The notes beneath the pieces were generated by a model, which had not been told where the DNA came from, ran no database searches, and worked only from the letters and a program-made list of their open reading frames with translations. Positions 4,808 through 22,279 of a stretch of 25,139 nt of DNA are shown here, in pieces. The stretch covers positions 1 through 25,139 of the IMG/VR virus record IMGVR_UViG_3300027777_000018; one strand, 5' to 3'. The DNA is from a virus. Position 1 is the first letter of the stretch. Each line of letters begins with the position of its first letter. The position numbers were made by a program, and so were the translations under genes.

Positions 4808-4855
4808 TCTATTTAATTAAAAATAGAATTTCGGTAGTTGCCTATAATTCAAAGA
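4808..4855 (+). promoter_or_regulatory. Putative integrase promoter and operator
   Basis: The 93-base gap before int is AT-rich and contains a perfect inverted repeat, TCTATTT / AAATAGA (4808-4814 and 4821-4827, spacer AATTAA), and a perfect -10 hexamer TATAAT at 4843-4848. No good -35 is present at 17 bases, and the repeat lies where a repressor or activator would bind. The first base of the int ATG (4855) is seven bases after the -10 element, so a leaderless transcript is possible. A TTATCCACA (DnaA-box consensus) lies nearby at 4789-4797. Confidence 0.45.
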
Positions 4856-6264
4856 TGCCGAGGGTTGCATTGAAACTTCATAATTTTGTGCGCAATGTAT
4901 GGTTCAACCGCTTGCGTCCTGCGTATCGTAGACCGCCAATTATGGTGTTAACTTTTACCGATGAAATCCTTGCTTGGCAAATGTGGCTTGTAGACCAGCA
5001 ATCTTATGAGCCAGCGCACGCCAAACTCGCTGCCCGATGGGCAGGCAGGTGGGTTGAACATGCGAACAATGAACTCACTCCCGCGAGTTGCGTCGCGTGG
5101 CTTTCGGACATGTGCCGCGAAACCAAACTAGCACCGCAGACTATTAGAAATCGCATGAGTTTATGCAGGCAGTTCAGTGGTTGGTTGGTTGTTCAGGGTC
5201 GTTTAAATACAAATCCTTGGTTGTCGATAAGCGCTCCGCGTGGTCGCGCTGGCGTTGGCGCAGACGCAATGACGCAAGACGATGTGAACAGACTGATCGC
5301 CGCCGCAGAGCGGGCTGCACTGAGTAACGATGGTCGACAGCGCAACAACTCTAAAACCCGAGCAACGCTTTATAGACTTTTAAACGGAACAGGAATGAGA
5401 TACGGAGAATGGAAATCGCAGCAGTGGGTAGACATCGATCTCAACAAACAACAGTTGACGGTGACTAAAGACAAGTCCCGGCGCCGAGACTCGATCCCGA
5501 TTTCCGAAAGCGTCGTGCGCACATTGCGAGCGTGGCGCAAAACATCCAAGGGCGAACTGGTCTTTGAAAAGTATCCGACAATGAAGGGACTTGAGACCGA
5601 TCTCAAATCTTGCGGAATCACAGGCCGCGGAAAGTTTCATCGGCTACGCGTTGGGTTTATTACAAGCGCGTATGACCAAGGAATTCGACCAGAACTAATT
5701 TCGCGGCTGGCGCGACACAAAGATATCTCTCAAACCAACCGCTATTTCCGTGCGAAAGATGATCATTTGAAAAGCAGCATCGAAACTATTTCACAAATCG
5801 GGATGGAATTATCCCCTGAGCCTATTGACACGCGAGAAAAATCCTGCTCTAGTCGGAGTGTGTTCAAGCCCTCTACTAAAAATGCAGCGAATGATCGTGG
5901 TTCTGAGGGCAATGGGCTTGAACACTCTTACCTTCGGAATCACGATCATCCACTGCAATCAGATTTTGTAAATGGGCGGTGGGGGACTCGAACCCTCACC
6001 CCGATTGACAGTCTGATCCAAACGCTTGGCAATCTAGCCGAGCAGCTAAGGATTCAGAATGAGCAGCAAGGACGCATCGTGGCAGAACAGAGCAGAGGAC
6101 ATCGTGTTGGCAATGGATCGCCTGAGCGGGTTGGCCGCACGGATCGAGGCGACCAAACCCGAGCAGGCAAGGCAGTTGAGAATGGGAGCGATGGCGATCC
6201 GATTGGTCATCGCCTGTCGGCTCGGAGATGTAATCCGTCTCCTAGATCCAGTCGCAGAGGCTGA
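4855..6264 (+). CDS. int: Tyrosine recombinase (phage integrase)
   Basis: Site-specific recombinase that joins attP to attB. The SAM-like core-binding domain spans about residues 32-125 and the catalytic domain about 138-312. All active-site residues are visible: Arg182 (in MRYGEW), Lys205, His262 and Arg265 (HRLR), His288 (ARHKD) and the nucleophile Tyr297 (NRYF). The start is uncertain: ATG 4855 would be leaderless, ATG 4942 (residue 30) also gives a normal N-terminus; neither has a Shine-Dalgarno. The recombinase fold ends near residue 315. The remaining 150 or so codons run through repeats, through a tRNA-like sequence (giving the tell-tale peptide WGTRTLTP) and 206 bases into the next gene, so this tail is probably not a conserved domain. 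If attP is where I place it, the true C-terminus after integration is set by host DNA. Confidence 0.9.
   Translation: MPRVALKLHNFVRNVWFNRLRPAYRRPPIMVLTFTDEILAWQMWLVDQQSYEPAHAKLAARWAGRWVEHANNELTPASCVAWLSDMCRETKLAPQTIRNRMSLCRQFSGWLVVQGRLNTNPWLSISAPRGRAGVGADAMTQDDVNRLIAAAERAALSNDGRQRNNSKTRATLYRLLNGTGMRYGEWKSQQWVDIDLNKQQLTVTKDKSRRRDSIPISESVVRTLRAWRKTSKGELVFEKYPTMKGLETDLKSCGITGRGKFHRLRVGFITSAYDQGIRPELISRLARHKDISQTNRYFRAKDDHLKSSIETISQIGMELSPEPIDTREKSCSSRSVFKPSTKNAANDRGSEGNGLEHSYLRNHDHPLQSDFVNGRWGTRTLTPIDSLIQTLGNLAEQLRIQNEQQGRIVAEQSRGHRVGNGSPERVGRTDRGDQTRAGKAVENGSDGDPIGHRLSARRCNPSPRSSRRG
5860..5949. repeat. Interleaved inverted repeats at the 3' end of int (pseudoknot-like)
   Basis: Repeat A: GTGTTCAAGCCC (5860-5871) is perfectly complementary to GGGCTTGAACAC (5914-5925). 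Repeat B: the 19 bases at 5891-5909 pair with 5931-5949 over their full length, with 16 Watson-Crick and three G-T pairs; the outer nine (ATGATCGTG/CACGATCAT) are perfect. The order is A, B, A', B', so they interleave: in RNA this is an H-type pseudoknot topology; in DNA it gives two symmetric sites typical of recombinase arm sites. The element lies between the recombinase domain and the candidate attP core. Confidence 0.75.
5973..5997 (-). other. tRNA 3'-end-like sequence, candidate attP core
   Basis: Read on the minus strand this is a T-arm and 3' acceptor strand: stem GAGGG, loop TTCGAGT, stem CCCCC, acceptor strand ACCGCCC and discriminator A. No 5' acceptor half (GGGCGGT) or complete cloverleaf can be made with the upstream minus-strand sequence, so it is not a functional tRNA gene. 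A partial tRNA 3' end next to an integrase is the classic attP signature; crossover with a host tRNA gene would restore the tRNA. The identity block may extend to about 6010 (towards an anticodon-loop-like CTGTCAA on the minus strand), but which tRNA is targeted cannot be told. Confidence 0.65.
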
Positions 6265-6463
6265 TCCCTCGAGCGTGATGGCTGCCTGTGAAGCCATCCT
6301 CCAAGGCGATCGACCCAAGACAAAGGAGATCCCGCTGGTCTCGCTTGGGCAGGGCGACATGGTGCGCGAGATCCTTGAGCGTGACCTTGTGAGCGAAGTG
6401 CAGAAGTCGTCGTTGATGCAGCGTGCTGTGTTGGCGTGGCGACAGATGCGAGGTGCAGCATGA
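6059..6463 (+). CDS. Hypothetical protein after integrase
   Basis: A 134-residue, mainly alpha-helical protein (MSSKDASWQNRAEDI..., ending RQMRGAA) with no recognised domain, signal or membrane segment. The start has a well-placed Shine-Dalgarno, AAGGA at 6048-6052 with six bases to ATG, the same spacing as three other block-leading genes in this genome. It overlaps the out-of-frame 3' tail of int by 206 bases, which argues that the int tail is the non-essential one. It heads the recombination module, with ATGA overlap to the RecE-like gene, so an accessory role in recombination or its regulation is possible. Confidence 0.65.
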   Translation: MSSKDASWQNRAEDIVLAMDRLSGLAARIEATKPEQARQLRMGAMAIRLVIACRLGDVIRLLDPVAEADPSSVMAACEAILQGDRPKTKEIPLVSLGQGDMVREILERDLVSEVQKSSLMQRAVLAWRQMRGAA

Positions 6464-7311
6464 GTCTGCGTCTACACGATTGCATTATTGAGAACCTTCC
6501 CGCCGAGGCGTACCACTCGGACGAGTCAGTCGGGTCTTCGCTGATCCGCAAGTTGCAGACCAGTACACCGATGCATGCTAAGGCGATGATGGAGACTCCG
6601 ATGTCTTCGCCCGCGCTGGCGTTGGGTACTGCTCTGCATGCGGCAATGCTCGAGCCTGAAAATGATTTAGCGCAGGCTGTCGTGAGTCCTGATGTGGACA
6701 AGCGAACGAAAGCAGGCAAGGAAATACACGCCGAATTTGAATTGGCTTATCAAAGTCAAGGTCGTTGCATAATTAATCAAGAGCAAGCCGAGCAACTCGA
6801 CGGCATGGTGATTGCGTGCCTAAAAGATTGGCGCATAAAGCACTCGCTGTCAGCCTGTAAAAAACGCGAGGTTTCCGTTTTTGGATCGGTGGGTGGTCAC
6901 AAAGCCAAAGCCCGGCTAGATGCTTGGAATGGTCACGGCATGGTGCTCGATCTAAAGACCACACGCGACCTTGCGTGCGACTTCGAGAAGTCAATCGCCA
7001 ACTTTGGATACGGCCTGCAAGCGGCTTGGTATCGAGAGGTTCTGCGCAGCGTGTTTGCGACCGAAGGTCGTCTAATGCCTGACGACTTCTCCTTTGTGTT
7101 CCTTGTTGTTGAGACCACATATCCGCACGGCACTGCGGTTTATCGCATGAGCGACGAGGTGATGGACTGCTACAGCGATCGACTTGTCGAGTTGCAGAAG
7201 CAGTGGTGGGAGTGCGTGTTGAAGAATGAATACAAAGGTTGGCCGCAGACAGATGTCGTCGACATCTCGTTGCCAGCGTGGGCTATGAAAAAATTACAGG
7301 AGCAGAGATGA
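6460..7311 (+). CDS. RecE / exonuclease VIII-like 5'-3' exonuclease (PD-(D/E)XK)
   Basis: A 283-residue protein from the ATG coupled by ATGA overlap (an upstream in-frame ATG at 6436 is inside the previous gene). Family features: LGTALHAAMLEP at about 55-66 with His60, Glu137 in KREVSV, Asp154 in KARLDAW, the core DLKTT at 164-168 (Asp164, Lys166), and the GYGLQAAWY motif at 183-191 with Gln187. This is the exonuclease VIII/RecE and Cas4-like nuclease fold, which resects dsDNA ends to give 3' single strands. The next genes encode a probable annealing protein and an SSB-like protein, forming a complete recombination set. Confidence 0.85.
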   Translation: MSLRLHDCIIENLPAEAYHSDESVGSSLIRKLQTSTPMHAKAMMETPMSSPALALGTALHAAMLEPENDLAQAVVSPDVDKRTKAGKEIHAEFELAYQSQGRCIINQEQAEQLDGMVIACLKDWRIKHSLSACKKREVSVFGSVGGHKAKARLDAWNGHGMVLDLKTTRDLACDFEKSIANFGYGLQAAWYREVLRSVFATEGRLMPDDFSFVFLVVETTYPHGTAVYRMSDEVMDCYSDRLVELQKQWWECVLKNEYKGWPQTDVVDISLPAWAMKKLQEQR

Positions 7312-8796: not shown

Positions 8797-8910
8797 ATGA
8801 AACTCAAACGAATGCATGACAGCGTCGAGTCGTTTTATCTCGGGCTGCTCTGCGGCTTGATCGGGATGTGGTGGATTCTCTATTCGTGGGGGGTGAACTA
8901 TGGAAACTGA
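8797..8910 (+). CDS. 37-residue membrane miniprotein
   Basis: MKLKRMHDSVESFYLG... followed by a hydrophobic helix (about residues 14-31, LLCGLIGMWWILYSW) and a short polar end. It has the same ribosome site as its neighbour, ACGCAAGGA (8782-8790) with six bases to ATG, which makes translation likely despite the small size. It overlaps the start of the primase-helicase gene by 11 bases, so the two are translationally coupled. Function unknown; small early membrane proteins often serve in superinfection exclusion or membrane anchoring. Confidence 0.6.
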   Translation: MKLKRMHDSVESFYLGLLCGLIGMWWILYSWGVNYGN

Positions 8911-10771
8911 AGTCATTAGCCACGCATATCGCTTGCTGCCGTACATCTTCGCAGAGGACGACATCATTGAGATCCGCACTCTCGGCGCGATGCGCGTGCA
9001 GAAGTGGACGACGCTCAAGGACGCGCCTGACATCATCGCCGACCTTGACAAACTTGGCGGCAGCGCGACCGACATGTACTTCGGAGCCAACCCGAGGGCG
9101 AACAAGAAGGGCGGCACGGCGAAAGATGTGAGCATGGCTCGATGCCTGTACGCAGACTTCGACGGCGGCACGACCATCGAGCAAGCCAAGATGCGCATCG
9201 AAGAATCATTGATCCCTGAGCCGACCGCGATTGTTGCCACTGGTGGAGGCGTGCATGCTTGGTGGCGGCTGTCGGAGCCGTGCCTCGACATGGATATTCA
9301 CTGCGCTTATCAGAAGGCACTTGCGGCTCGGCTTGGCTCTGACAAGTGCATTCACGACGCTCCGCGCTTGATGCGCTTGCCGGGCTTTGTGAATACCAAG
9401 TACGACCATCGACCGCTCTGCTATGTGGCCGCAGTCGACACGGACAACACTTACTCGCTTGCGGACTTCCCTGACCCGACGGATGAGAAGTCGGAGCGAG
9501 TGAGTGTTGTTGTGCCGCCAGTGCCGAAGAGCATGAGCAATCTGTCGCACCGATTCCTTAACGAAGGCTATGTGATGCCAGCGGGTCGCCGACAAACCAT
9601 CTTTACCGTTGCGTGCGATCTCGCGGCTCGGTCGTGGGACGAAGGCGAAGCAATGAAGGTGATCACGGAACGATCCGACACGCTCGGGCTGTCGCCGATT
9701 GATCTGCTTGACATACCAAGGCAGATCGCAAACGCATACAAGTTCCCGCGCTTGCCGTGCGTGGGAGATGCCGAGGCGGCTACGCCGACAGCGGCGGACT
9801 CGGCTCTTGTGATCACACCGATCTGCAAACTAGTTGCCGCTCACAAGGAACTGCGCCGACCGATCATTCACGGACTGCTGCGCTCGGGCGAGACCATGAA
9901 CATCATCAGTGCCCCAAAGATGGGCAAGTCGTGGCTGGTCAACGCACTTGCCATTCACGCATCGCTCGGGCGACCGTGGCTCGGCTTCCACTGCGCCAAG
10001 AGCCGCGTGCTGCTGATCGACAACGAGCTGCACAGCGAGACGACGGCGAGGCGCATACCCGCGCTATGCAAGGCACTTGGCATCGACATCGCCGAACTCG
10101 CAGACCTCGACACTCTGAACTTGCGCGGCAACCTGATTGACTTCAGCAAACTCGGGCCAGTCTTGTTCGACAAGATCGAGAAGGGTCGCTACGACATCGT
10201 GATCCTCGATGCCTTCTATCGCTTCCTTGTCGCCGGCATGGCTGAGAATGACAACGGCGCAATGGCAGCGGTCTACAACATGATTGATCAATGGGCGCAG
10301 AAGTTGGGCTGTTGCTTCATCATGATCCACCACACATCAAAGGGCAATCAGTCGGACAAGGATGTCACGGATGTCGGCTCGGGCGCAGGCAGCATGAGCC
10401 GCGCCGCAGACACGCATCTCATTCTCAGGCATCACGAAGACGAGCATCATTTGGTGCTTGACGCTGCCGTGCGGTCGTTCGAGCCAGTGCTGCCAAAGGT
10501 TCTGCATTGGTCGTTCCCGCTGTTCACGACGGCGAACAACAAGGATGCGGCACGACTCAAGCGCAAAGGCCCGATCTATGACGGCTGGACTACCGAGCGA
10601 TTCGTCGACGAGGTCTTTGGTATCAAGACTTTGACCACAGGTCAGGCTTTGCCCATCGCCCTCAAGTTGAAACTGAGTGCCAACAGGTTTAAGACCCTCC
10701 GTCAAGCCTCGGTCGGCGAAGGTTTGCTTGTCGCCGAGAGCGACCGTGGGCCATATCGAAAGGCGATGTAA
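8900..10771 (+). CDS. Primase-helicase (RepB-like primase fused to RecA-like ATPase)
   Basis: A 623-residue two-domain replication protein. Residues about 1-200 look like a RepB/prim-pol type primase: YADFDGG with Asp86 and Asp88, TGGGVHAWWRL (114-123) and MRLPGFVNTK (158-167). Residues about 300-545 are a RepA/RecA-like hexameric helicase: Walker A SAPKMGKSW (337-345, Lys343), Walker B DIVILDAF (432-439, Asp437), and IMIHHTSKG (474-482) in the position of the glutamine/histidine switch. Such proteins unwind and prime at a phage or plasmid origin. The start has a GGGGGGTGA ribosome-site-like sequence just upstream. Directly downstream lies a cluster of TCGGAGG boxes, a natural origin candidate for it. 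Confidence 0.85.
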   Translation: METEVISHAYRLLPYIFAEDDIIEIRTLGAMRVQKWTTLKDAPDIIADLDKLGGSATDMYFGANPRANKKGGTAKDVSMARCLYADFDGGTTIEQAKMRIEESLIPEPTAIVATGGGVHAWWRLSEPCLDMDIHCAYQKALAARLGSDKCIHDAPRLMRLPGFVNTKYDHRPLCYVAAVDTDNTYSLADFPDPTDEKSERVSVVVPPVPKSMSNLSHRFLNEGYVMPAGRRQTIFTVACDLAARSWDEGEAMKVITERSDTLGLSPIDLLDIPRQIANAYKFPRLPCVGDAEAATPTAADSALVITPICKLVAAHKELRRPIIHGLLRSGETMNIISAPKMGKSWLVNALAIHASLGRPWLGFHCAKSRVLLIDNELHSETTARRIPALCKALGIDIAELADLDTLNLRGNLIDFSKLGPVLFDKIEKGRYDIVILDAFYRFLVAGMAENDNGAMAAVYNMIDQWAQKLGCCFIMIHHTSKGNQSDKDVTDVGSGAGSMSRAADTHLILRHHEDEHHLVLDAAVRSFEPVLPKVLHWSFPLFTTANNKDAARLKRKGPIYDGWTTERFVDEVFGIKTLTTGQALPIALKLKLSANRFKTLRQASVGEGLLVAESDRGPYRKAM

Positions 10772-14316: not shown

Positions 14317-15913
14317 GCGATACGACTTGCCCGGCTACGACGCAGTCGCAACTGCGGGCGACGGCGATCACTTCGTGCAATCAAAAGCCGACGCTGCTTT
14401 CGCATTCTTTGCGCAGGCGTTGCAACACAGCAAAGGCAAGTGGGCTGGTCAGCCATTTGAATTGCAGCCGTGGCAAAAGGCAATCGTCGGCAACCTGATC
14501 GGCTGGCAACGCGCCGACGGCACACGCCGCTATCGCTCGGCATACATTGAAGTGGCAAGAAAGCAGGGGAAAAGTCAACTCTGCGCAGGGCTTGCTCTGT
14601 GGTCGCTGCTCGCCAGCGGAGAGAACAGTCCCGAAGTTTACTGCTGTGCATCGAGTCGAGATCAAGCGGCGATCGTCGGCGACGCATGCAAGGCGATGAT
14701 CAGAGCGTGTCCAGCGTTGTCGAGCGTGCTCGAGATCTATCGCAACACGATCACATGCGCAAAGAACAACGGCAAGATCGAAATTTTGTCTAGCGAGTCG
14801 GGGACAAAGCACGGGCGATCTGCCTCAACCCTAATTTTCGATGAGCTTCATACAGCACCAAATCGAGATCTGTGGGATGCAATGCAAACTTCTGTCGGTG
14901 CTCGACAAGAACCACTATCAATCACAATTACAACTGCGGGTCATGACAAACATTCATTGTGCTACGAGCAGCATCAGTACAGTCAGAAAGTCCGTTCGGG
15001 CACTGTCGTCGATCGCTCGCATCTTCCTGTTTTGTTCGGCGCGGACAAAGATGCGGACTGGAAGTCGCCAGCGGTGTGGAAAGCATCTAATCCCAACTTG
15101 GGTGTCAGTGTTGATGAAGCGTTCTTGCAGAGCGAATGTCTTAAGGCGCAAGAGTTGCCCGGTCACGAGATCGCATTCCGACAGTTGTATTTGTGCCAAT
15201 GGACAGAAACAAAGAAGCGATGGATCTCGCTTGAGTCGTGGGCCGCGTGCGCCGCGCCCGAGATCGACGAGCAATACTTTGCGGGCAAGGACATCATAAT
15301 TGCATGCGACTTGTCCACCACGACGGACTTGACTTCCGTGGCTGTGATCAATGTCGACGAAGATGAGAATGTCGCATTTCTTTCATACGCATTCTGTCCC
15401 GAGAACGGCATCCGCAGACGAGCGCGGGTCGATCGAGTTCCCTACGACACTTGGGCATCGCAAGGCTCACTGATCGCCACGCCGGGCGATGTCGTCGATT
15501 ACGAATATGTGGCGCAGAAGATCCGCGACATCTCCAAGATCGCTCGCTCGGTCAAGGCTGTCGGCTACGACCCTTGGAACGCAACGCAGTTTGCAGTCGG
15601 GTTGCAACAAGAAGGTCTGCCAATGCTTGAAGTGCGACAAGGTTATCGCAGTCTCTCAGAAGGTTCTAAAGCACTTGAGGCACTCGTCCTCGGCAAGAAG
15701 TTAAAGCACGCCGCGCATCCAGTCGCCGACTGGTGCATGGCCAACACGATGATCGACACCGATCCCGCAGGCAATATCAAACCATCGAAAAGCAGTTCGA
15801 CGGAGCGCATCGATTGCATCGCCGCGCTCGTCACGGCGCTCGCGTGCATGGTGCACAAAGACGCAGACAACAAAACATCAATCTACGAAGAAGGAAACAT
15901 GCAATGGGTCTAA
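14240..15913 (+). CDS. terL: Terminase large subunit (ATPase and nuclease)
   Basis: Motor that cuts and packages phage DNA. Numbered from TTG 14240 (557 residues): family N-terminus RYDLPGYDAVATAGDGD (27-43), WAGQPFELQPWQ (68-79), Walker A VARKQGKS (105-112), Walker B LIFDE (198-202), coupling motif TTAG (231-234), and nuclease metal ligands Asp357 in IACDLSTTTDLTSV and Asp444 in YDPWNA. The exact start is uncertain. No ATG exists before the conserved N-terminus, TTG 14240 overlaps TerS by 77 bases, and TTG 14327 would cut into the conserved RYDLPGYD segment. No Shine-Dalgarno supports either. The Walker A has Gln in place of the usual Asn (RKNGK to RKQGK). Confidence 0.92.
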   Translation: MLYKVRKPAAIAKKTRSKTCSSSDPKRYDLPGYDAVATAGDGDHFVQSKADAAFAFFAQALQHSKGKWAGQPFELQPWQKAIVGNLIGWQRADGTRRYRSAYIEVARKQGKSQLCAGLALWSLLASGENSPEVYCCASSRDQAAIVGDACKAMIRACPALSSVLEIYRNTITCAKNNGKIEILSSESGTKHGRSASTLIFDELHTAPNRDLWDAMQTSVGARQEPLSITITTAGHDKHSLCYEQHQYSQKVRSGTVVDRSHLPVLFGADKDADWKSPAVWKASNPNLGVSVDEAFLQSECLKAQELPGHEIAFRQLYLCQWTETKKRWISLESWAACAAPEIDEQYFAGKDIIIACDLSTTTDLTSVAVINVDEDENVAFLSYAFCPENGIRRRARVDRVPYDTWASQGSLIATPGDVVDYEYVAQKIRDISKIARSVKAVGYDPWNATQFAVGLQQEGLPMLEVRQGYRSLSEGSKALEALVLGKKLKHAAHPVADWCMANTMIDTDPAGNIKPSKSSSTERIDCIAALVTALACMVHKDADNKTSIYEEGNMQWV

Positions 15914-18099
15914 TCGATCTCATCACACGCGCACTCGGCAAAACTCCGCCACGATCTTTATTCGAGGATTCAACGCCAATCGGACAGCCGATGAGTGGCG
16001 GAATCCAGTCGTATGTTTCATCGTGGGCGTGGACTGGTAAAACGATTTCACCCGACAACGCAATGGAGGCTCCGACGGTTTACGCGTGCGTGCGATTGAT
16101 CTCGCAGACTCTCGCTCGAATGCCGTGGCAAGTTCTGCGCAACAGCGCGGACGGCGCGAGCAATGATGTTACGCATCCTGTGTACCAGCTGCTCAACGGC
16201 GAAGCCAACGAGGACATGACATCGTTTGTGTTTCGTGAGGCGCAGATTTCAGATTGTTTGTTGTACGGCAATTCGTTTGCATTCATCAATCGCAATCCCG
16301 CAGGCACGCCGATCGGACTTGAGCGACTGCGACCCGACCTGATGTACATGATGCGCGACCAAGCCAACCAACCCTATTACCAATACTGGACAGGCAAAGC
16401 AGACGAGAAAGCATCCGAGGAAATTAAGCAACGCAAGTTCAGACCATACGACATTCTCCATGTCGTCGGGCCGGGCGCAGACGGCTTGCTCGGCGAAGCG
16501 GCAATCCATCGCATGCGCGACCTGATCGGCATGGAGTTGGAGTTGCAAGAGTTCACATCTCGATTCTTTGCCAACAACTGTCGCCCCGCAGGCGTGCTCT
16601 CGATGCCGGGCAGACTGAGCGCGGAAGGTGCAAACAGATTGCGCGAGGCATTTGCTCGAGTGCACTCGGGAGCGCAAGGCGCGGGCAAGGTTGCGATTCT
16701 TGAGGAAGGTCTCAAGTACGACGCAATTAGCACCAACGCCAAAGACAGCGACCTCGACAGCATGAAGAAGTTTTGTCGGCAGCAGATCGCCGCTGCATTC
16801 AATGTGCCGTCGCATCGCGTCGGCGACAACGACGGCGTGAGTTACTCGTCAGCCGAACAAGCCAATGCAGTGTTCGTGCAGAGCACGCTTGCGGGTTGGG
16901 CGGCTCGACTCGAGCAAGAAGTCAATCGCAAGTTGATTAAGCGTGGCGACGATGTCACGACCCGCATCTCATTCGATGATCTATTGCGCGGCGACATGTC
17001 GACCCGCTTCAGCGCGTATGCGGTCGCTGTCACAAACGGCATCTTGACACCTAACGAAATCAGATCGCGTGAAGGATTGCCAGCCGTCGAAGGCGGCGAG
17101 TCGATCCGCTTGCCTCTGAACACAAGCACTCCGACTGCGGCTGCACCTGTTTCGCCGAATGTAACCACTGAAACCGAAACACAGATTGAGCCGCCGCAGT
17201 CGGATGTTGTGCCAGCGTCGGTCGACATCGACCCGACTGAGTTGAAGTCGATCCGCGAATGCGGAACAGGCGCAGGCGGATTCCAAGCGGGCAACGACTG
17301 CGCAAAAGGTGGCGGCGAAGGTGGCGAAGGTGGATCAGATAAACCAAAGGGCGACAAGCCTGCCGCAAAGGGAGACAAGCCCTCAAAAGCATTAAGTCCC
17401 AAGGGAAGACCAGCAGGCCCTAATGGAGGCAAGCCGCCAGCAGAAGGTCTTGAGCCACCAAAGCCGCACGATGGATATTTGCCAAAAAATCCAAAGGCGT
17501 TGAATATTGGAGATTCAGATTTCAACGCCAAACAAATGGGATACAAAGTAGAAAAGGTTCCTGCGTCTCTTGCAGATCAATTAGCCAAAAAAACTTTTGT
17601 GAAAATAACTGATTCAAAAGGGAATAGTGCTGTTGTTTCAAATCATGAGTGGACGCAAAGCATGTACGACAATGCAACTGACACTAATGTCAATGAAATA
17701 AAAGTTCCAAAGAGCCGACCAAAACGAGACTCTGAAGAAACACTTGAGTATGCAGTTGATCTTTTTTATCCAACTGCACTGGCGGCGATGACGCGATGCT
17801 GTGAGTCGGAAGCAAAGTACCGCCGAGGCTGTCGATCTGCTGAACGATTGCAGGCTTGGACACCCGATGTCGCACGCATCGCAAGCGAGATCGCCCCGAT
17901 CATGCGCGGGCTATTGGTTTTGCAAGGTCACAGCGACCGCGCAAGCGACGGCATTGCCATCGCCAACGCATTCGCAGAGTCGATCAAGACCGAGGCACGC
18001 AATGCAGACTGGCACAACACAGGACACACCGAGACGGCCGTGGCACTCGCCACGCGCCTGATTCAAGAACTCATTCAAACTAACAAGGAGCAACTATGA
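15904..18099 (+). CDS. HK97-type portal protein with large C-terminal extension
   Basis: Dodecameric channel at the capsid vertex. Start ATG 15904 lies in the end of terL (10-base overlap); the same frame open further upstream is spurious. Of 731 residues, 1 to about 405 match an HK97 portal: TVYACVRLISQTLARMPWQV (58-77), LYGNSFAFINR, DILHVVG, the crown and stem helices up to NEIRSREGLP (384-393). The family normally ends near 400-450. Here follow CGTGAGGFQAGNDCAKGG (453-470), a Gly/Lys/Pro low-complexity linker (470-525), an AT-rich segment of about 80 residues with different codon use (525-607), and a helical C-terminal part (610-731). The extra part may be a virion cargo or internal head protein. 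ATGA overlap couples it to the protease gene. Confidence 0.92.
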   Translation: MGLIDLITRALGKTPPRSLFEDSTPIGQPMSGGIQSYVSSWAWTGKTISPDNAMEAPTVYACVRLISQTLARMPWQVLRNSADGASNDVTHPVYQLLNGEANEDMTSFVFREAQISDCLLYGNSFAFINRNPAGTPIGLERLRPDLMYMMRDQANQPYYQYWTGKADEKASEEIKQRKFRPYDILHVVGPGADGLLGEAAIHRMRDLIGMELELQEFTSRFFANNCRPAGVLSMPGRLSAEGANRLREAFARVHSGAQGAGKVAILEEGLKYDAISTNAKDSDLDSMKKFCRQQIAAAFNVPSHRVGDNDGVSYSSAEQANAVFVQSTLAGWAARLEQEVNRKLIKRGDDVTTRISFDDLLRGDMSTRFSAYAVAVTNGILTPNEIRSREGLPAVEGGESIRLPLNTSTPTAAAPVSPNVTTETETQIEPPQSDVVPASVDIDPTELKSIRECGTGAGGFQAGNDCAKGGGEGGEGGSDKPKGDKPAAKGDKPSKALSPKGRPAGPNGGKPPAEGLEPPKPHDGYLPKNPKALNIGDSDFNAKQMGYKVEKVPASLADQLAKKTFVKITDSKGNSAVVSNHEWTQSMYDNATDTNVNEIKVPKSRPKRDSEETLEYAVDLFYPTALAAMTRCCESEAKYRRGCRSAERLQAWTPDVARIASEIAPIMRGLLVLQGHSDRASDGIAIANAFAESIKTEARNADWHNTGHTETAVALATRLIQELIQTNKEQL

Positions 18100-18659
18100 G
18101 CAACATCGAAACCCGCAAGGCTGGCGCAGTAAAAGTAACCAAGCGAGAAGGCAAACTCGTCCCGGGCGAGCCGCTGGTGCTCGCAGGCGTTGCGGCGAAT
18201 TGGAACCGCTACGACATGGGAACCACATACGAGCGTCTTGAGCCGACTTGCTTTGACGAGTCGATCGCAGCCGACGGCGAGAAGATTGTGCTGCTGTGGA
18301 ACCACGACACCGCCAAGCCGATGGGTCGAGTCAGCGCAGGCAATCTAGATGTGTTTGCTGATGCGGACGGCCTCGGATTCGAGTGCTCGCTTCCCGAGAC
18401 GGATACGAGTGAAGAAGCGCATGCCTTGGTCAGTTCGGGCATTGTGACGCAATGCTCGTTCGGGTTTATCTCGCTTGCCGAAAAGTACGAACCGCCTGCC
18501 AAAGGCGAGACCAAGGGGACGAGAGTGATTCAAAAGGCTCGCCTTTTGGAAATCTCCGTCGTCACCTTTCCCGCAAACGAAGAAGGCACATATGTCGAAG
18601 CCCGAGCCGAGCAACCAAAAGCCAAGAAGCGAAAGATCTATCTGCCTCCACAATTTTGA
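18096..18659 (+). CDS. HK97-type prohead protease
   Basis: A 187-residue serine protease of the HK97/herpesvirus assemblin fold. Catalytic His70 sits in LLWNHD and Ser121 in TQCSFGF, and the conserved LLEISVVTFPAN (150-161, Glu152) follows. It cuts the scaffold-like delta region off the major capsid protein during head maturation; only the second capsid gene (20104) has an obvious delta region. The end is followed by a promoter-like element and a 199-base leader. Confidence 0.9.
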   Translation: MSNIETRKAGAVKVTKREGKLVPGEPLVLAGVAANWNRYDMGTTYERLEPTCFDESIAADGEKIVLLWNHDTAKPMGRVSAGNLDVFADADGLGFECSLPETDTSEEAHALVSSGIVTQCSFGFISLAEKYEPPAKGETKGTRVIQKARLLEISVVTFPANEEGTYVEARAEQPKAKKRKIYLPPQF

Positions 18660-18668
18660 GATTGCCCA

Positions 18669-18697
18669 CTTGCGAGCGAAAATCCGTTTGCGATAAT
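18669..18697 (+). promoter_or_regulatory. Promoter-like element, copy A, upstream of capsid genes
   Basis: CTTGCGAGCGAAAAT at 18669-18683 followed by a second TTGCGA at 18688-18693. Read as a sigma70-type promoter it has TTGCGA (18670-18675), a 16-base spacer and GATAAT (18692-18697), the best promoter match of the three copies. The start would be near 18704, giving a leader of about 155 bases before the first capsid gene. It fits a separate strong promoter for capsid production. Confidence 0.6.
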
Positions 18698-18858
18698 GGG
18701 CTGCATAACTGAATACATCCTCGACCGACGGCGCCAGACGCTGATCGATCACGAGAGTGGACTTCCGCGAACTCCCCGAGAGCACGCAGGTTCAAAAGCG
18801 TACTTAGACCTTCCGCATTTTGACCGCGTGTTTTCTTTTATACACGCAAGGAGTTTGA
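18698..18858 (+). promoter_or_regulatory. Leader of the first capsid gene with hairpin and strong ribosome site
   Basis: No convincing gene is present; an 80-codon frame at 18696-18938 starts on the -10 element and overlaps the capsid gene, so I reject it. At the 3' end are the inverted repeat GCGTGT/ACACGC (18826-18831 and 18842-18847), and within its right arm begins the ribosome site ACGCAAGGAG (18844-18853), with AAGGA ending six bases before ATG. Confidence 0.5.
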
Positions 18859-20004
18859 ATGAACGACAAGAACCAACTCGATCGTGGCGGCGAAGAATAC
18901 GGCCACCTTTTCAAGAATTATTTATTGCGTGGCGCTAAGGGCATGACCGACTCTGAGTTGCGTGCTCTCAGCGAGACCAGCGGCGGCACTGTCCTATTCC
19001 CGACAATTTACTCAAACAAGTTTATGGAAGCGTTGGGCGACGACCAAATCCTTGGTCAAGTGCAAAAGATGGTGATCAATTCGTCCACCTTCTCAATCCC
19101 AATCCTGACTCCAGTAGCTTTGCAGGGCGGTTTCAGTCTGCAAAAGAACCCTGGCGAAGCGGGCACGATCATCGATGCCACAGCAGGATCGCAGACCACA
19201 GTGACCGTTCCAACGATTGCGCTGCCGGGCACGACGACAACAGGCTCGGCAACATCCACGCTGGCGCTCAAGCGCATCAGCGTGATGGTGAAAGTATCGA
19301 ACGAGTTGCTCGAGGATTCGGTCGGTCAAGGCGACGCAAGCGTCGAAAGTTTCATTGTGCGCCAAGCGGCCGCAGATATTTCAACTCAAATTGTCAAGCA
19401 GATTCTCGTTGGCAATGCGACTGGAACACAGACCGCAGGAACGGCAAGCACAGTCGGATCTGATTCGTGCCACGGAATCTACTCAACATGCAGGCGATAC
19501 AGTCGGCAATACCCGACAAGTGATTGGGGTGGCGGCATTAGCAGCACAGCGGTGCGTGACAGCATTCAGTCAATTCTGTTTGGAAACACAAACGCGCAAA
19601 CATTCCCGACTCAGTATTTTAACCGAGCGACACTGATTCTTAATTCCCAACTTGGTCGAACCACGGCTACTACTGGAGTTCAAGGAACACAGATCGTCTC
19701 AGCCGCAAATGCACAAGCGGCATTTGCATACGGCAGCGAACGCAAGATATTTGGCGTGCCGTGGTGCTTGCAAGACATGAGCATCTCAAACACTGGCAAT
19801 GCAGTAATTGCCAGCGGTCAGGAGCCGATGGCAATCCTTGCGGATCTCACACGATATCTATTTGTTTCAAGCAGCGAAGGCGCAACAGTCACAAAACTAA
19901 GCGAAACATTTGCAGAAAATAATCAGACGGCTCTGATTGTTTCCATGCGCTGCGCTGGCGTTCTCGCAGATGTAAAGGCTGCAATGGCTTACGGACTCTC
20001 TTAA
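18859..20004 (+). CDS. HK97-fold capsid protein 1 (no delta region)
   Basis: A 381-residue HK97-fold protein. The start of the mature-type domain, ALSETSGGTVLFPTI (36-50), and the P-domain strand and helix KVSNELLEDS (145-154) match positions AISEASGGTVL and QVSNELVDDA of the second capsid gene at 20104. The C-terminal half (FGVPWCLQDMS, then ILADLTRYLFV) also follows the family plan. It has only about 35 residues before the capsid domain, so it lacks a scaffold region, and it has about 24 more residues between the two shared motifs. It may be the main shell protein using scaffold supplied in trans, or a minor (vertex or decoration-like) capsid subunit. Very strong Shine-Dalgarno. Confidence 0.85.
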   Translation: MNDKNQLDRGGEEYGHLFKNYLLRGAKGMTDSELRALSETSGGTVLFPTIYSNKFMEALGDDQILGQVQKMVINSSTFSIPILTPVALQGGFSLQKNPGEAGTIIDATAGSQTTVTVPTIALPGTTTTGSATSTLALKRISVMVKVSNELLEDSVGQGDASVESFIVRQAAADISTQIVKQILVGNATGTQTAGTASTVGSDSCHGIYSTCRRYSRQYPTSDWGGGISSTAVRDSIQSILFGNTNAQTFPTQYFNRATLILNSQLGRTTATTGVQGTQIVSAANAQAAFAYGSERKIFGVPWCLQDMSISNTGNAVIASGQEPMAILADLTRYLFVSSSEGATVTKLSETFAENNQTALIVSMRCAGVLADVKAAMAYGLS

Positions 20005-20016
20005 TGAATTATTTCA

Positions 20017-20095
20017 CAGACATTCACCGTCGAGCGTGCGTGTCTGTTGCCTCAGCGTTGAGGTAATCGACTCTCGCTCGACACAACAAGAAGGA
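20017..20095 (+). promoter_or_regulatory. Structured leader between the two capsid genes
   Basis: The 99-base gap contains nested inverted repeats: GTCGAGCG (20029-20036) with CGCTCGAC (20075-20082), 8 bp perfect; inside it CCTCA-GCGT-TGAGG (20050-20063), a 4-base-loop hairpin; and an alternative CAGACA/TGTCTG pair (20017-20022, 20041-20046). The two folds compete for the same bases. There is no T-tract, so it is not a classical terminator. The ribosome site AAGGA (20091-20095) for capsid 2 follows directly. It may set the ratio of the two capsid proteins or protect a processed mRNA end. Confidence 0.5.
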
Positions 20096-20103
20096 ATTTT
20101 ATC

Positions 20104-21369
20104 ATGGCAAACGATAGTGGATACAAGGCACTAGTAGAAAAGATGGGCGCTGTGTACGCCGAAATGAAGAAGATGTGCGACGACGCAAACGATAGCGGCG
20201 AAGGCATGTCCGACGCTCTCGAAGCGAAGTACAGCGCGTTGAAGATGCAATACGCATCACTCACAGCGCAACGACAACGCAGTGACGAACTGATGAATGT
20301 TGGCGCGGGTTTCAAGGCTGAGGCTCCCGAGGCCGCGAAACAAATTCGCAATCTTCCCGGTGCTGAGAATGCAAGCAACAAGTCGGGTCGCAACACGGAG
20401 ACCGACGAGTATCGCAACGCTTGGGGCTCATACATTCGCTCAGGTGAATACACCAACCCAATGGAGATCCGCGCAATCAGCGAGGCTTCAGGCGGCACAG
20501 TGTTGCCACCACTTGAGTTTCATAACGCCATAACGACACGACTGAAGACGATGACTGCTATTCGTCAACTTGCCAAGGTGATTTCTATCGGCAGTTATGC
20601 GCGTGAGTTTGCCACCGATAACGCGGCTGGTACTGCGACCTTTGCAACAGAAGGTGGCACAATCACGGAGACTGGTCAAACTTTCCAAAAGGTGACATTG
20701 ACACCAAAGAAGTTGACCGCTCTTTTGCAAGTCTCAAATGAACTTGTCGACGATGCTCCAGCGCGTGGCGCAGGATTCAGCATCGAGTCAATCCTCACCG
20801 AGTCTTTTGCTCGTCTGTTTGCTCAAGCGGAAGAAGCCGCGTTTGTTGGACCAACAGCCGTAACTAACGGTCCTTCAAATCCTTTGTTGGGCGCATCCGT
20901 TGCAAATGTCACGATTGCCACCGGCAAGACCACTGCGACTGCTGGCGGAACAACATTGCTTGCTTCGGAAGTAATTGATTGGGTGTACTCACTTGCTCGT
21001 CAGTACCGCACAAATGCCAGCATCTTGGTTCACGATGCGACACTCGGAAAGTTGCGTCAACTTGGCTCACTCAATGGCTCTGTGAATTACTTCTGGCAAA
21101 ACTCAGGCGCACTCGGCGAGCCTGATCGATTGATGGGTATTCCTGTTTACACATCAGCCGCAATGCCAGTGATGGCTTCTGCTACCAAGATCGGCGTGAT
21201 CGGCGACTTCGGAAACTATTCCGTTCTCGCAGAGCGCGGAACTTACAGCATGCGCGTGTTGAAAGAATTGTACGCGGGCACGGGACAGACTGGATATTTA
21301 GCCACGAATCGTGTGGATTTTTCCATCACGCTCAAAGACGCGTTCAGCGTTCTTGCTACCGCTACCTAA
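20104..21369 (+). CDS. HK97-type major capsid protein 2 (with delta/scaffold region)
   Basis: A 421-residue canonical HK97 major capsid precursor. Residues 1 to about 100 are a charged, coiled-coil delta region (VEKMGAVYAEMKKMCDD..., LEAKYSALKMQYASLTAQR) expected to serve as internal scaffold and be removed by the prohead protease. The shell domain starts around ISEASGGTVLPP (125-136), with the E-loop region near 155-195, QVSNELVDDAPA (209-220) in the P domain, and the closing GIPVYTS / VIGDFGNYSVLAERG / RVDFSITLKDAF pattern near the end. A good ribosome site (AAGGA, eight bases before ATG) supports high expression. This is the best candidate for the main shell subunit. Confidence 0.9.
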   Translation: MANDSGYKALVEKMGAVYAEMKKMCDDANDSGEGMSDALEAKYSALKMQYASLTAQRQRSDELMNVGAGFKAEAPEAAKQIRNLPGAENASNKSGRNTETDEYRNAWGSYIRSGEYTNPMEIRAISEASGGTVLPPLEFHNAITTRLKTMTAIRQLAKVISIGSYAREFATDNAAGTATFATEGGTITETGQTFQKVTLTPKKLTALLQVSNELVDDAPARGAGFSIESILTESFARLFAQAEEAAFVGPTAVTNGPSNPLLGASVANVTIATGKTTATAGGTTLLASEVIDWVYSLARQYRTNASILVHDATLGKLRQLGSLNGSVNYFWQNSGALGEPDRLMGIPVYTSAAMPVMASATKIGVIGDFGNYSVLAERGTYSMRVLKELYAGTGQTGYLATNRVDFSITLKDAFSVLATAT

Positions 21370-21425: not shown

Positions 21426-21626
21426 ATGCCGAATGTAAAGATGATCCAAGGAGTCGTGACAGCGACTGGCGCACACGCGCCGGGCGAAGTCATCTCTGTC
21501 GACGAGCGCACCGCAATCGAGTGGATGGCACTCGGTTACGCCGAGCGCGCAGACTCCGACGATGTGCAGTGCTGTTCGCGGGCCGTGCCATGCAAGGCAG
21601 TCAAGAAGGGAGCAACACCGCGATGA
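21426..21626 (+). CDS. Small head-region protein
   Basis: A 66-residue protein (MPNVKMIQGVVTATGAHAPGEVISVDERTA...) ending with a cysteine-containing basic tail. The first 45 residues resemble the small beta-barrel-like proteins (KxxGxxxPGxxxxVDxxTAxxxxxxGxAE) that many HK97 phages encode between capsid and connector; their role in the head is unclear. The ribosome site GAGGA lies in the preceding hairpin. It is coupled to the connector gene by ATGA. Confidence 0.65.
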   Translation: MPNVKMIQGVVTATGAHAPGEVISVDERTAIEWMALGYAERADSDDVQCCSRAVPCKAVKKGATPR

Positions 21627-22279
21627 GAGTCAACACCAAGATCACAACCGAACCAAGTTTCGAGCCAGTGTCGACTGCGCAAACCAAGGCGCATCTGCGC
21701 ATATTCCACTCGCTTGACGACACCTACATTGCCGCAAGCAGCGGCGGGTCGACATCAATCATCACGACAGCCCGACAGATGATCGAGAACTATTGCGGCA
21801 TCGCAATCCCAAACACGACATTCACATCGGTCTACGATTCGTTCCCACAGAACACGCCGCTGCAAGGCTCGAGCAACGAGGTCTACAACGGCTCGGGATT
21901 TGAGATCGCATTGCCGCGCTCGCCGCTAGTCAGCGTGACGAGCGTGCAATATGTCGACGCGGCTGGCACGACGCAGACGCTGTCAGCGTCAACCGACTAC
22001 ACGGTGAAGTCATACAACGGAATTGGACGCATTCAATTACTTGACGGCAAAACATGGCCGTCACTCGTCAGCGGCGGCGCAGGAGTCGTCACAGTTGTCT
22101 ATGTAGCGGGTTGGGGTTCCAGCGCAACTGCAATCCCCATCGCACTCAAGCACGCAATCTTGATGCAATGCTCGACGCTGTACGACTACAGATCCACACT
22201 CGCTCCGGGTCAACAGTACGAAGTGCCCGGCACGATCAAGGCTCTCATCGCTCAATACAAGTCGGGTGAATACCAATGA
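21623..22279 (+). CDS. Head-tail connector (adaptor) protein, gp6-like
   Basis: A 218-residue adaptor that docks below the portal. Start ATG overlaps the previous stop; a longer frame from 21383 is spurious. The family pattern is visible: an N-terminal helical part with AKAHLRI-type and DDTYI...ITTARQMIENYCG segments (about 20-60), then EIALPRSPLVSVTSVQYVDAAGTTQTL (beta part, about 93-119) and a C-terminal helix, ALKHAILMQCSTLYDYR. This is the HK97 gp6 / SPP1 gp15 type with a beta insertion. Next genes encode closure, neck and terminator proteins in canonical order. Confidence 0.8.
   Translation: MRVNTKITTEPSFEPVSTAQTKAHLRIFHSLDDTYIAASSGGSTSIITTARQMIENYCGIAIPNTTFTSVYDSFPQNTPLQGSSNEVYNGSGFEIALPRSPLVSVTSVQYVDAAGTTQTLSASTDYTVKSYNGIGRIQLLDGKTWPSLVSGGAGVVTVVYVAGWGSSATAIPIALKHAILMQCSTLYDYRSTLAPGQQYEVPGTIKALIAQYKSGEYQ

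Follow-up and report, generated by a model that had tools for sequence, protein, structure and literature searches.

The window analyzed here is the whole linear IMG/VR virus contig IMGVR_UViG_3300027777_000018, with a length of 25,139 bases. Two genes for capsid proteins, named M1 and M2, are located in tandem between the genes for the S78 prohead protease and the head-tail connector, and the terminase and portal genes are found upstream (Table 1). The gene order around M2 is that of an HK97-type head module: portal, S78 protease, capsid protein with an N-terminal delta of ~100 aa, and connector. The portal gene encodes a protein of 732 aa, in which the match to PF04860 is limited to aa 58-392; the linker starting from ~aa 450 is variable or missing among the relatives, and the last 118 residues are conserved. 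Outside the head operon, a gene at positions 8900-10771 encodes one 623-aa fusion of a RepB-type primase domain with an AAA_25 (RepA-like) ATPase, and a tyrosine integrase gene was found at 4855-6264 (PF00589, E 8e-17), suggesting that the phage is probably temperate. No prophage with the M1-M2 pair was found in one search of genome contigs using M1; the sole product of this search was a distant M2-like prophage (L098) having no M1. The initial annotation described a 25 kb siphophage; the value of 25 kb is the length of the linear contig rather than a demonstrated genome size, and the tail genes suggest the siphophage type.

Table 1. Features of the head region in the window and examples of the fibre-like gene in related contigs (coordinates of the latter are those of the contig named)
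Feature	Coordinates	Strand	Evidence
Portal protein with long C-terminal extension	15901..18099	+	PF04860 8.2e-92
S78-type prohead protease	18096..18659	+	PF04586 4.5e-32; TIGR01543
Conserved structured element 5' of M1	18660..18858	+	Hairpins at ~18720-18755, 18757-18768, 18778-18835
M1 (381 aa), second capsid gene of the HK97 fold, with short prepeptide	18859..20004	+	PF05065, TIGR01554, hhalign, Foldseek
M1 prepeptide, aa 1-35	18859..18963	+	hhalign columns; length constant in relatives
M1 hypervariable A-domain region, aa 221-320	19519..19818	+	Within-class identity
Conserved RNA hairpin between M1 and M2 (99-nt gap, 20005-20103)	20029..20082	+	Pairing, covariation
M2, HK97-type major capsid gene, 421 aa, long N-terminal delta (scaffold-type)	20104..21369	+	PF05065; phmmer
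M2 delta region, aa 1-123	20104..20472	+	AF2 helices; DNA identity among relatives
Head-tail connector, conserved flank 3' of M2	21617..22279	+	TIGR02215 2.5e-23; phrog_442
Fibre-like gene examples	L094 7297-8535; L038 7259-8560; L072 7194-8348; L080 7329-8237

Both capsid reading frames are open over the lengths given, and both products match TIGR01554 and exceed the PF05065 cutoff of 24.2 bits, in agreement with the tandem HK97-fold genes proposed in the initial annotation. M2 scores 156.6 bits against PF05065 (E 1.1e-45), matches the GTA capsid 6tb9 by phmmer (4e-30), and has 297 matching phage records. The AlphaFold2 (AF2) model of M2, built with a supplied alignment that was too uniform, is weak (pLDDT 37.9), reaching ~70 only in two helices predicted in the delta region, at aa 4-31 and 37-63. 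Among relatives with the same M2 type, DNA identity is 90-94% in the delta region versus 74-84% in the M2 core.

For M1, the PF05065 score is 51.7 bits (E 1.1e-13, curated cutoff), and the same family was matched by all 25 of 25 diverse M1 proteins. Comparison of the M1 and M2 profiles by hhalign aligned 309 columns with a probability of 99.8 (E 2.5e-28). Searched against PDB sequences, the profile of diverse M1 proteins detected HK97 gp5 (3e8k, E 1.1e-5), the GTA capsid (6tba, E 9e-8), and the 1ohg sequence. The AF2 model of M1 has low confidence (pLDDT 51.6, pTM 0.50); nevertheless, the top Foldseek matches of this model are HK97-fold shells, with 188 matches at E<=1e-3, and the profiles agree with this assignment. 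Thus, on profile evidence and a predicted structure, M1 has the HK97 fold. A search of 50,697 phage records at the DNA and protein levels, including tblastn, found nothing that matches M1.

The absence of a scaffold region from M1, previously proposed from the window sequence, was found in all the relatives. In the hhalign comparison, the counterpart of the M1 prepeptide is limited to the C-terminal portion of the M2 delta, ending at the R-A-L-S junction. The junction Arg is preceded by 30-35 residues in 74 M1 proteins and by 120-129 residues in 60 M2 proteins; in the window, these numbers are 34 and ~122, respectively. Both proteins contain the junction motif E-x-R-[AV]-[LI]-[SN], and the junction tetrapeptides largely agree between M1 and M2 partners. 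Thus, in class D, RVLN in M1 is paired with RVLN or RVLS in M2; being confined to one lineage, this joint change counts as a single event. The shared motif suggests cleavage of M1 but falls short of proof.

Contigs with these genes were gathered via M1 and, independently, via M2. Among 80 contigs found by the M2 profile alone, M1 is located directly upstream of M2 in 74; the remaining six begin within M2 or a short distance ahead of it, so that M1 is out of view. The pair is therefore obligate, being present in 74 of 74 testable contigs, and it is not unique to the present assembly. All 11 long contigs searched as a whole have two PF05065 genes each, counting L066, in which M2 (5935-7240) is split across three frames next to an intact M1 by frameshifts that are real or come from sequencing, and L035, in which M1 is represented by sub-cutoff pieces only. 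Portal identity to the window drops to ~50% across the contig set, which indicates that the two-gene arrangement is old. Six single-capsid relatives were checked; these have the same module with no M1 between the protease and the capsid gene. The M1-M2 pair characterizes a large family of uncultured phages, in which M1 changes faster than M2, the ordinary shell protein.

In the maximum-likelihood tree, M1 proteins form one clade (100/100) and M2 proteins form another (99/93). Single-capsid phages join the M2 side of the tree, in which the long branches leave the exact root unsure. The separate clades, together with this placement of the single-capsid phages, point to M1 as a derived extra subunit and not a recent copy. 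Median dN/dS values are 0.06-0.27 within M1 classes and 0.13-0.31 within M2, indicating at the codon level that purifying selection is acting on both genes and that neither of them is decaying. It is extremely improbable that M1 is a recent duplicate, is a second copy in decay, or results from faulty assembly. The interrupted M2 of L066 is in line with such decay, as is a frameshift near the C-terminus of M1 in L031 (2343-3392), which alters the last residues and runs on into the M1-M2 gap, but the M1-M2 identity of ~18-29%, the old separate clades, the 74 linked contigs, and the low dN/dS all disagree with it, and the survey of relatives led to rejection of the decaying duplicate.

M1 is an exchangeable cassette. 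On backbones having M2 proteins 92-99% identical, M1 alleles are just 33-39% identical to each other. For instance, contig L030 and the window share DNA identity of 90% in the portal gene, 93% in the upstream gap, 99% in the M1-M2 gap, 92% in the M2 delta, and 89% in the connector, while past its first codons the M1 gene of L030 could not be aligned to that of the window by blastn. Two contigs from one metagenome, L003 and L031, share 99% identity in M2 but 37% in M1 by global alignment, and a similar contrast was found in the pairs L012/L030, L011/L025, and L004/L023, with identity falling at the M1 borders. Chimeras of coexisting strains might arise where short reads were assembled over the conserved flanks of 99 nt and 199 nt; they could affect the pair from a single sample but would not account for the deep disagreement of the M1 tree with the M2 tree. 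In five further contigs (L091, L092, L093, L094, and L097), M1 and M2 were swapped jointly on a backbone otherwise close to that of the window, with portal identity of 93-99% where the portal is present.

Allelic diversity of this kind, with alleles swapping between nearly identical backbones, would also be accounted for if M1 were no lasting part of the virion and interfered with capsids of foreign phages, as a dominant-negative factor in superinfection or satellite control; interference by capsid homologues is known from PICIs. Such a role is nonetheless quite improbable for a gene that lies inside the head operon, is never lost, is under strong purifying selection, and moves together with M2 in the class swaps.

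The differences between M1 alleles are concentrated in one block. In class B, which has a long M1, within-class identity is 0.52-0.68 at positions 221-320 versus ~0.80-1.0 elsewhere; in class F, the corresponding values are 0.26-0.52 and 0.68-0.90. M2 proteins of the same genomes have no comparable variable block. Alignment to the HK97 and GTA capsids places this block after the spine helix and before the C-terminal strands, i.e., in the A-domain, which in the HK97 fold packs around the capsomer centre. Divergence of the M1 A-domain alongside a near-constant M2 fits homomeric M1 capsomers rather than capsomers shared with M2. It is possible, at clearly lower probability than a pentamer subunit, that M1 co-assembles with M2 outside the pentamers, taking some hexamer positions or forming mixed hexamers, a ring near the portal, or a prolate end cap. 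The evidence for co-assembly applies equally to these arrangements, and the HK97 fold is conserved throughout M1. However, mixing should constrain the M1 A-domain against that of M2, yet M1 A-domains differ widely; moreover, both known two-protein HK97 shells of such kind segregate by capsomer.

The length of M1 coincides with another difference between the contigs. A gene for a fibre-like protein of 300-430 aa (phrog_5939 'tail protein' or glycine-rich phrog_2295), accompanied by a small gene, is located between M2 and the connector in 17 of 23 contigs with a short M1 and in 0 of 28 with a long M1, L006, in which a class A gene is truncated, being counted as long. The product of this gene may be a head fibre that takes over a function of the long M1.

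Conserved RNA elements were found on both sides of M1; like the cassette exchange and the hypervariable A-domain, these were absent from the initial annotation. The 199-nt element before M1 is 87-96% identical to that of the relatives, including those with M1 unalignable by blastn. Its helices 3-7 are paired in 100% of alignment cells. Three pairs are changed on both sides in the whole structure, two of them in helix 4; covariation is less here because the sequence hardly varies. The promoter-like element proposed before M1 (18670-18697) amounts to a match at 9 of 12 consensus positions.

The hairpin in the M1-M2 gap is paired in 98.4% of cells in 22 sequences. Of its 20 pairs, 9 show compensatory changes on both sides, as compared with 0-2 when the partner was shifted by 1-3 columns as a control. 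Its pattern was found in 37 viral contigs, nearly all of them already known members of the M1-M2 family. An Rfam search returned no match for either M1-flanking element. A standard terminator was considered for the hairpin and rejected, as no U-tract follows it; terminator-like matches in the region are no more frequent than by chance. In a distant clade (L043 and its kin), the M1-M2 gaps are mostly 15-30 nt and have no hairpin, so the hairpin is not essential to a two-protein shell as such. We propose that the flanking RNAs may set the M1:M2 ratio via processing, stability, or translation.

M1 is preceded by a conserved leader element and a ribosome site of its own, as would be expected if it served conditionally as an alternate shell protein or a determinant of shell size, giving two kinds of particles. 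The Ccm protein of the satellite SaPIbov5 redirects shell size through occupation of pentamers (PMC8569155). M1, having no delta, is unlikely to make a shell alone, and its persistence throughout the family speaks for an essential gene rather than a conditional one. Conditional use is accordingly improbable, though less so than interference with foreign capsids.

Two known systems can be compared with the M1-M2 pair, an arrangement met with mainly in T4, a phage of much larger size. In T4, gp24 has a prepeptide of 10 residues versus 65 in gp23, is ~20% identical to it, and forms the pentamers (PMC9958956). The M1-M2 pair resembles gp23/gp24 in being two HK97-fold paralogues of low identity, with a much shorter prepeptide in the putative minor one and a viral prohead protease. 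As with gp24, M1 is an HK97-fold protein paralogous to the major capsid protein and has the shorter prepeptide of the two. T4 differs in being a myophage of large size whose core scaffold is a separate component; in the M1-M2 phages, the operon is of the HK97 type, delta is fused to M2, and the protease belongs to the S78 type. Additionally, the M1 gene precedes that of M2, undergoes cassette exchange, and has conserved RNA elements on either side, and pentamer placement of M1 would rest on analogy. In a tree that did not include gp24, M1 groups apart from M2 and from the single-capsid phages, and the PDB profile search with M1 retrieved the GTA, EcCI2, and HK97 capsids, but not gp24. The gp23/gp24 parallel drawn in the initial annotation stands as the best-supported working analogy, in which the capsomer assigned to each protein is conjectural; membership of M1 in the gp24 family is not claimed.

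The second system is Ccm, which occurs in pentamers only and is compared with the capsid protein of phage phi12 (prepeptides of 87 vs. 128 residues, 24% identity; PMC8569155). Like M1, Ccm is a second HK97-fold homologue with a delta shorter than that of its HK97-type partner, and it forms no shell alone. Ccm is satellite-encoded and acts against its helper, whereas M1 is a resident gene of the head operon that is never lost. A satellite gene of the PICI Ccm type was rejected for M1, which is part of the head operon of the phage in all relatives. Finally, M2 with its portal, S78 protease, and connector resembles the modules of HK97 and the Rhodobacter GTA (PF05065, TIGR01554), and its closest solved sequence is the GTA protein Rcc01687; these modules, unlike those of the M1-M2 phages, have one capsid gene.

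Linkage, separate clades, purifying selection, matching junctions, A-domain variation, and joint replacement of M1 and M2 all point to one shell, and co-assembly of the two proteins is well supported by this indirect evidence. Our main reading, with a probability of about 55%, is that M1 is the vertex (pentamer) subunit co-assembled with M2 hexamers. The short M1 prepeptide in all relatives matches the two solved precedents, in which the paralogue with the shorter prepeptide is in the pentamers; homomeric pentamers would be natural for M1, as T4 gp24 and SaPIbov5 Ccm sit there. Nothing in the sequence tells pentamers from homomeric hexamers, and the choice of pentamers would follow from these analogies. 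In ordinary phages, a single protein forms both pentamers and hexamers, which counts against dedicated M1 pentamers.

Under the pentamer reading, the portal, the protease, and M2 with its delta would start the prohead as in HK97. M2, keeping the long delta, would form the hexamers and scaffold the prohead; M1, keeping only ~34 residues before the junction, would be unable to scaffold alone and would be drawn into the M2 prohead via shared N-arm and P-domain contacts. There, it would build homomeric capsomers and close the fivefold positions, most likely as the eleven pentamers away from the portal vertex. The S78 protease would probably trim both proteins at the matching R-[AV]-[LI]-[SN] junction, and the shell would then expand and be filled. 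Since M1 capsomers would touch M2 at the rim only, the M1 A-domain would be free to diverge. Whole M1 alleles would be swapped by recombination within the conserved flanks, and the RNA elements before and after M1 would probably set the M1:M2 dose.

A recent review presented T4 as the example of a phage whose HK97-fold shell has distinct genes for pentons and hexons, suggesting that the arrangement is affordable owing to its large genome (PMC13185644, 2026). The obligate pair in a contig-rich family with an ordinary HK97-type operon makes genome size an unlikely reason. A literature search, conducted mostly outside subscription papers, found no account of siphophages with two HK97 capsid genes; within this partial coverage, the obligate pair in HK97-type siphophage modules may be so far undescribed.

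More tentatively, and at somewhat less than even odds, the pentamer subunit in this widespread family would be a rapidly exchanged cassette with a hypervariable centre, located between RNAs that both fix its dose and anchor its recombination. If this is true, the shell would present a changeable surface at its corners and a constant one in the hexamer lattice. The covarying hairpin located between the shell genes is a candidate regulator of the subunit ratio. The natural allele series, in which the same M2 is accompanied by many M1 proteins, would allow a test of what determines pentamer versus hexamer subunits, of whether hexamers alone require delta, and of why the corner protein diversifies.
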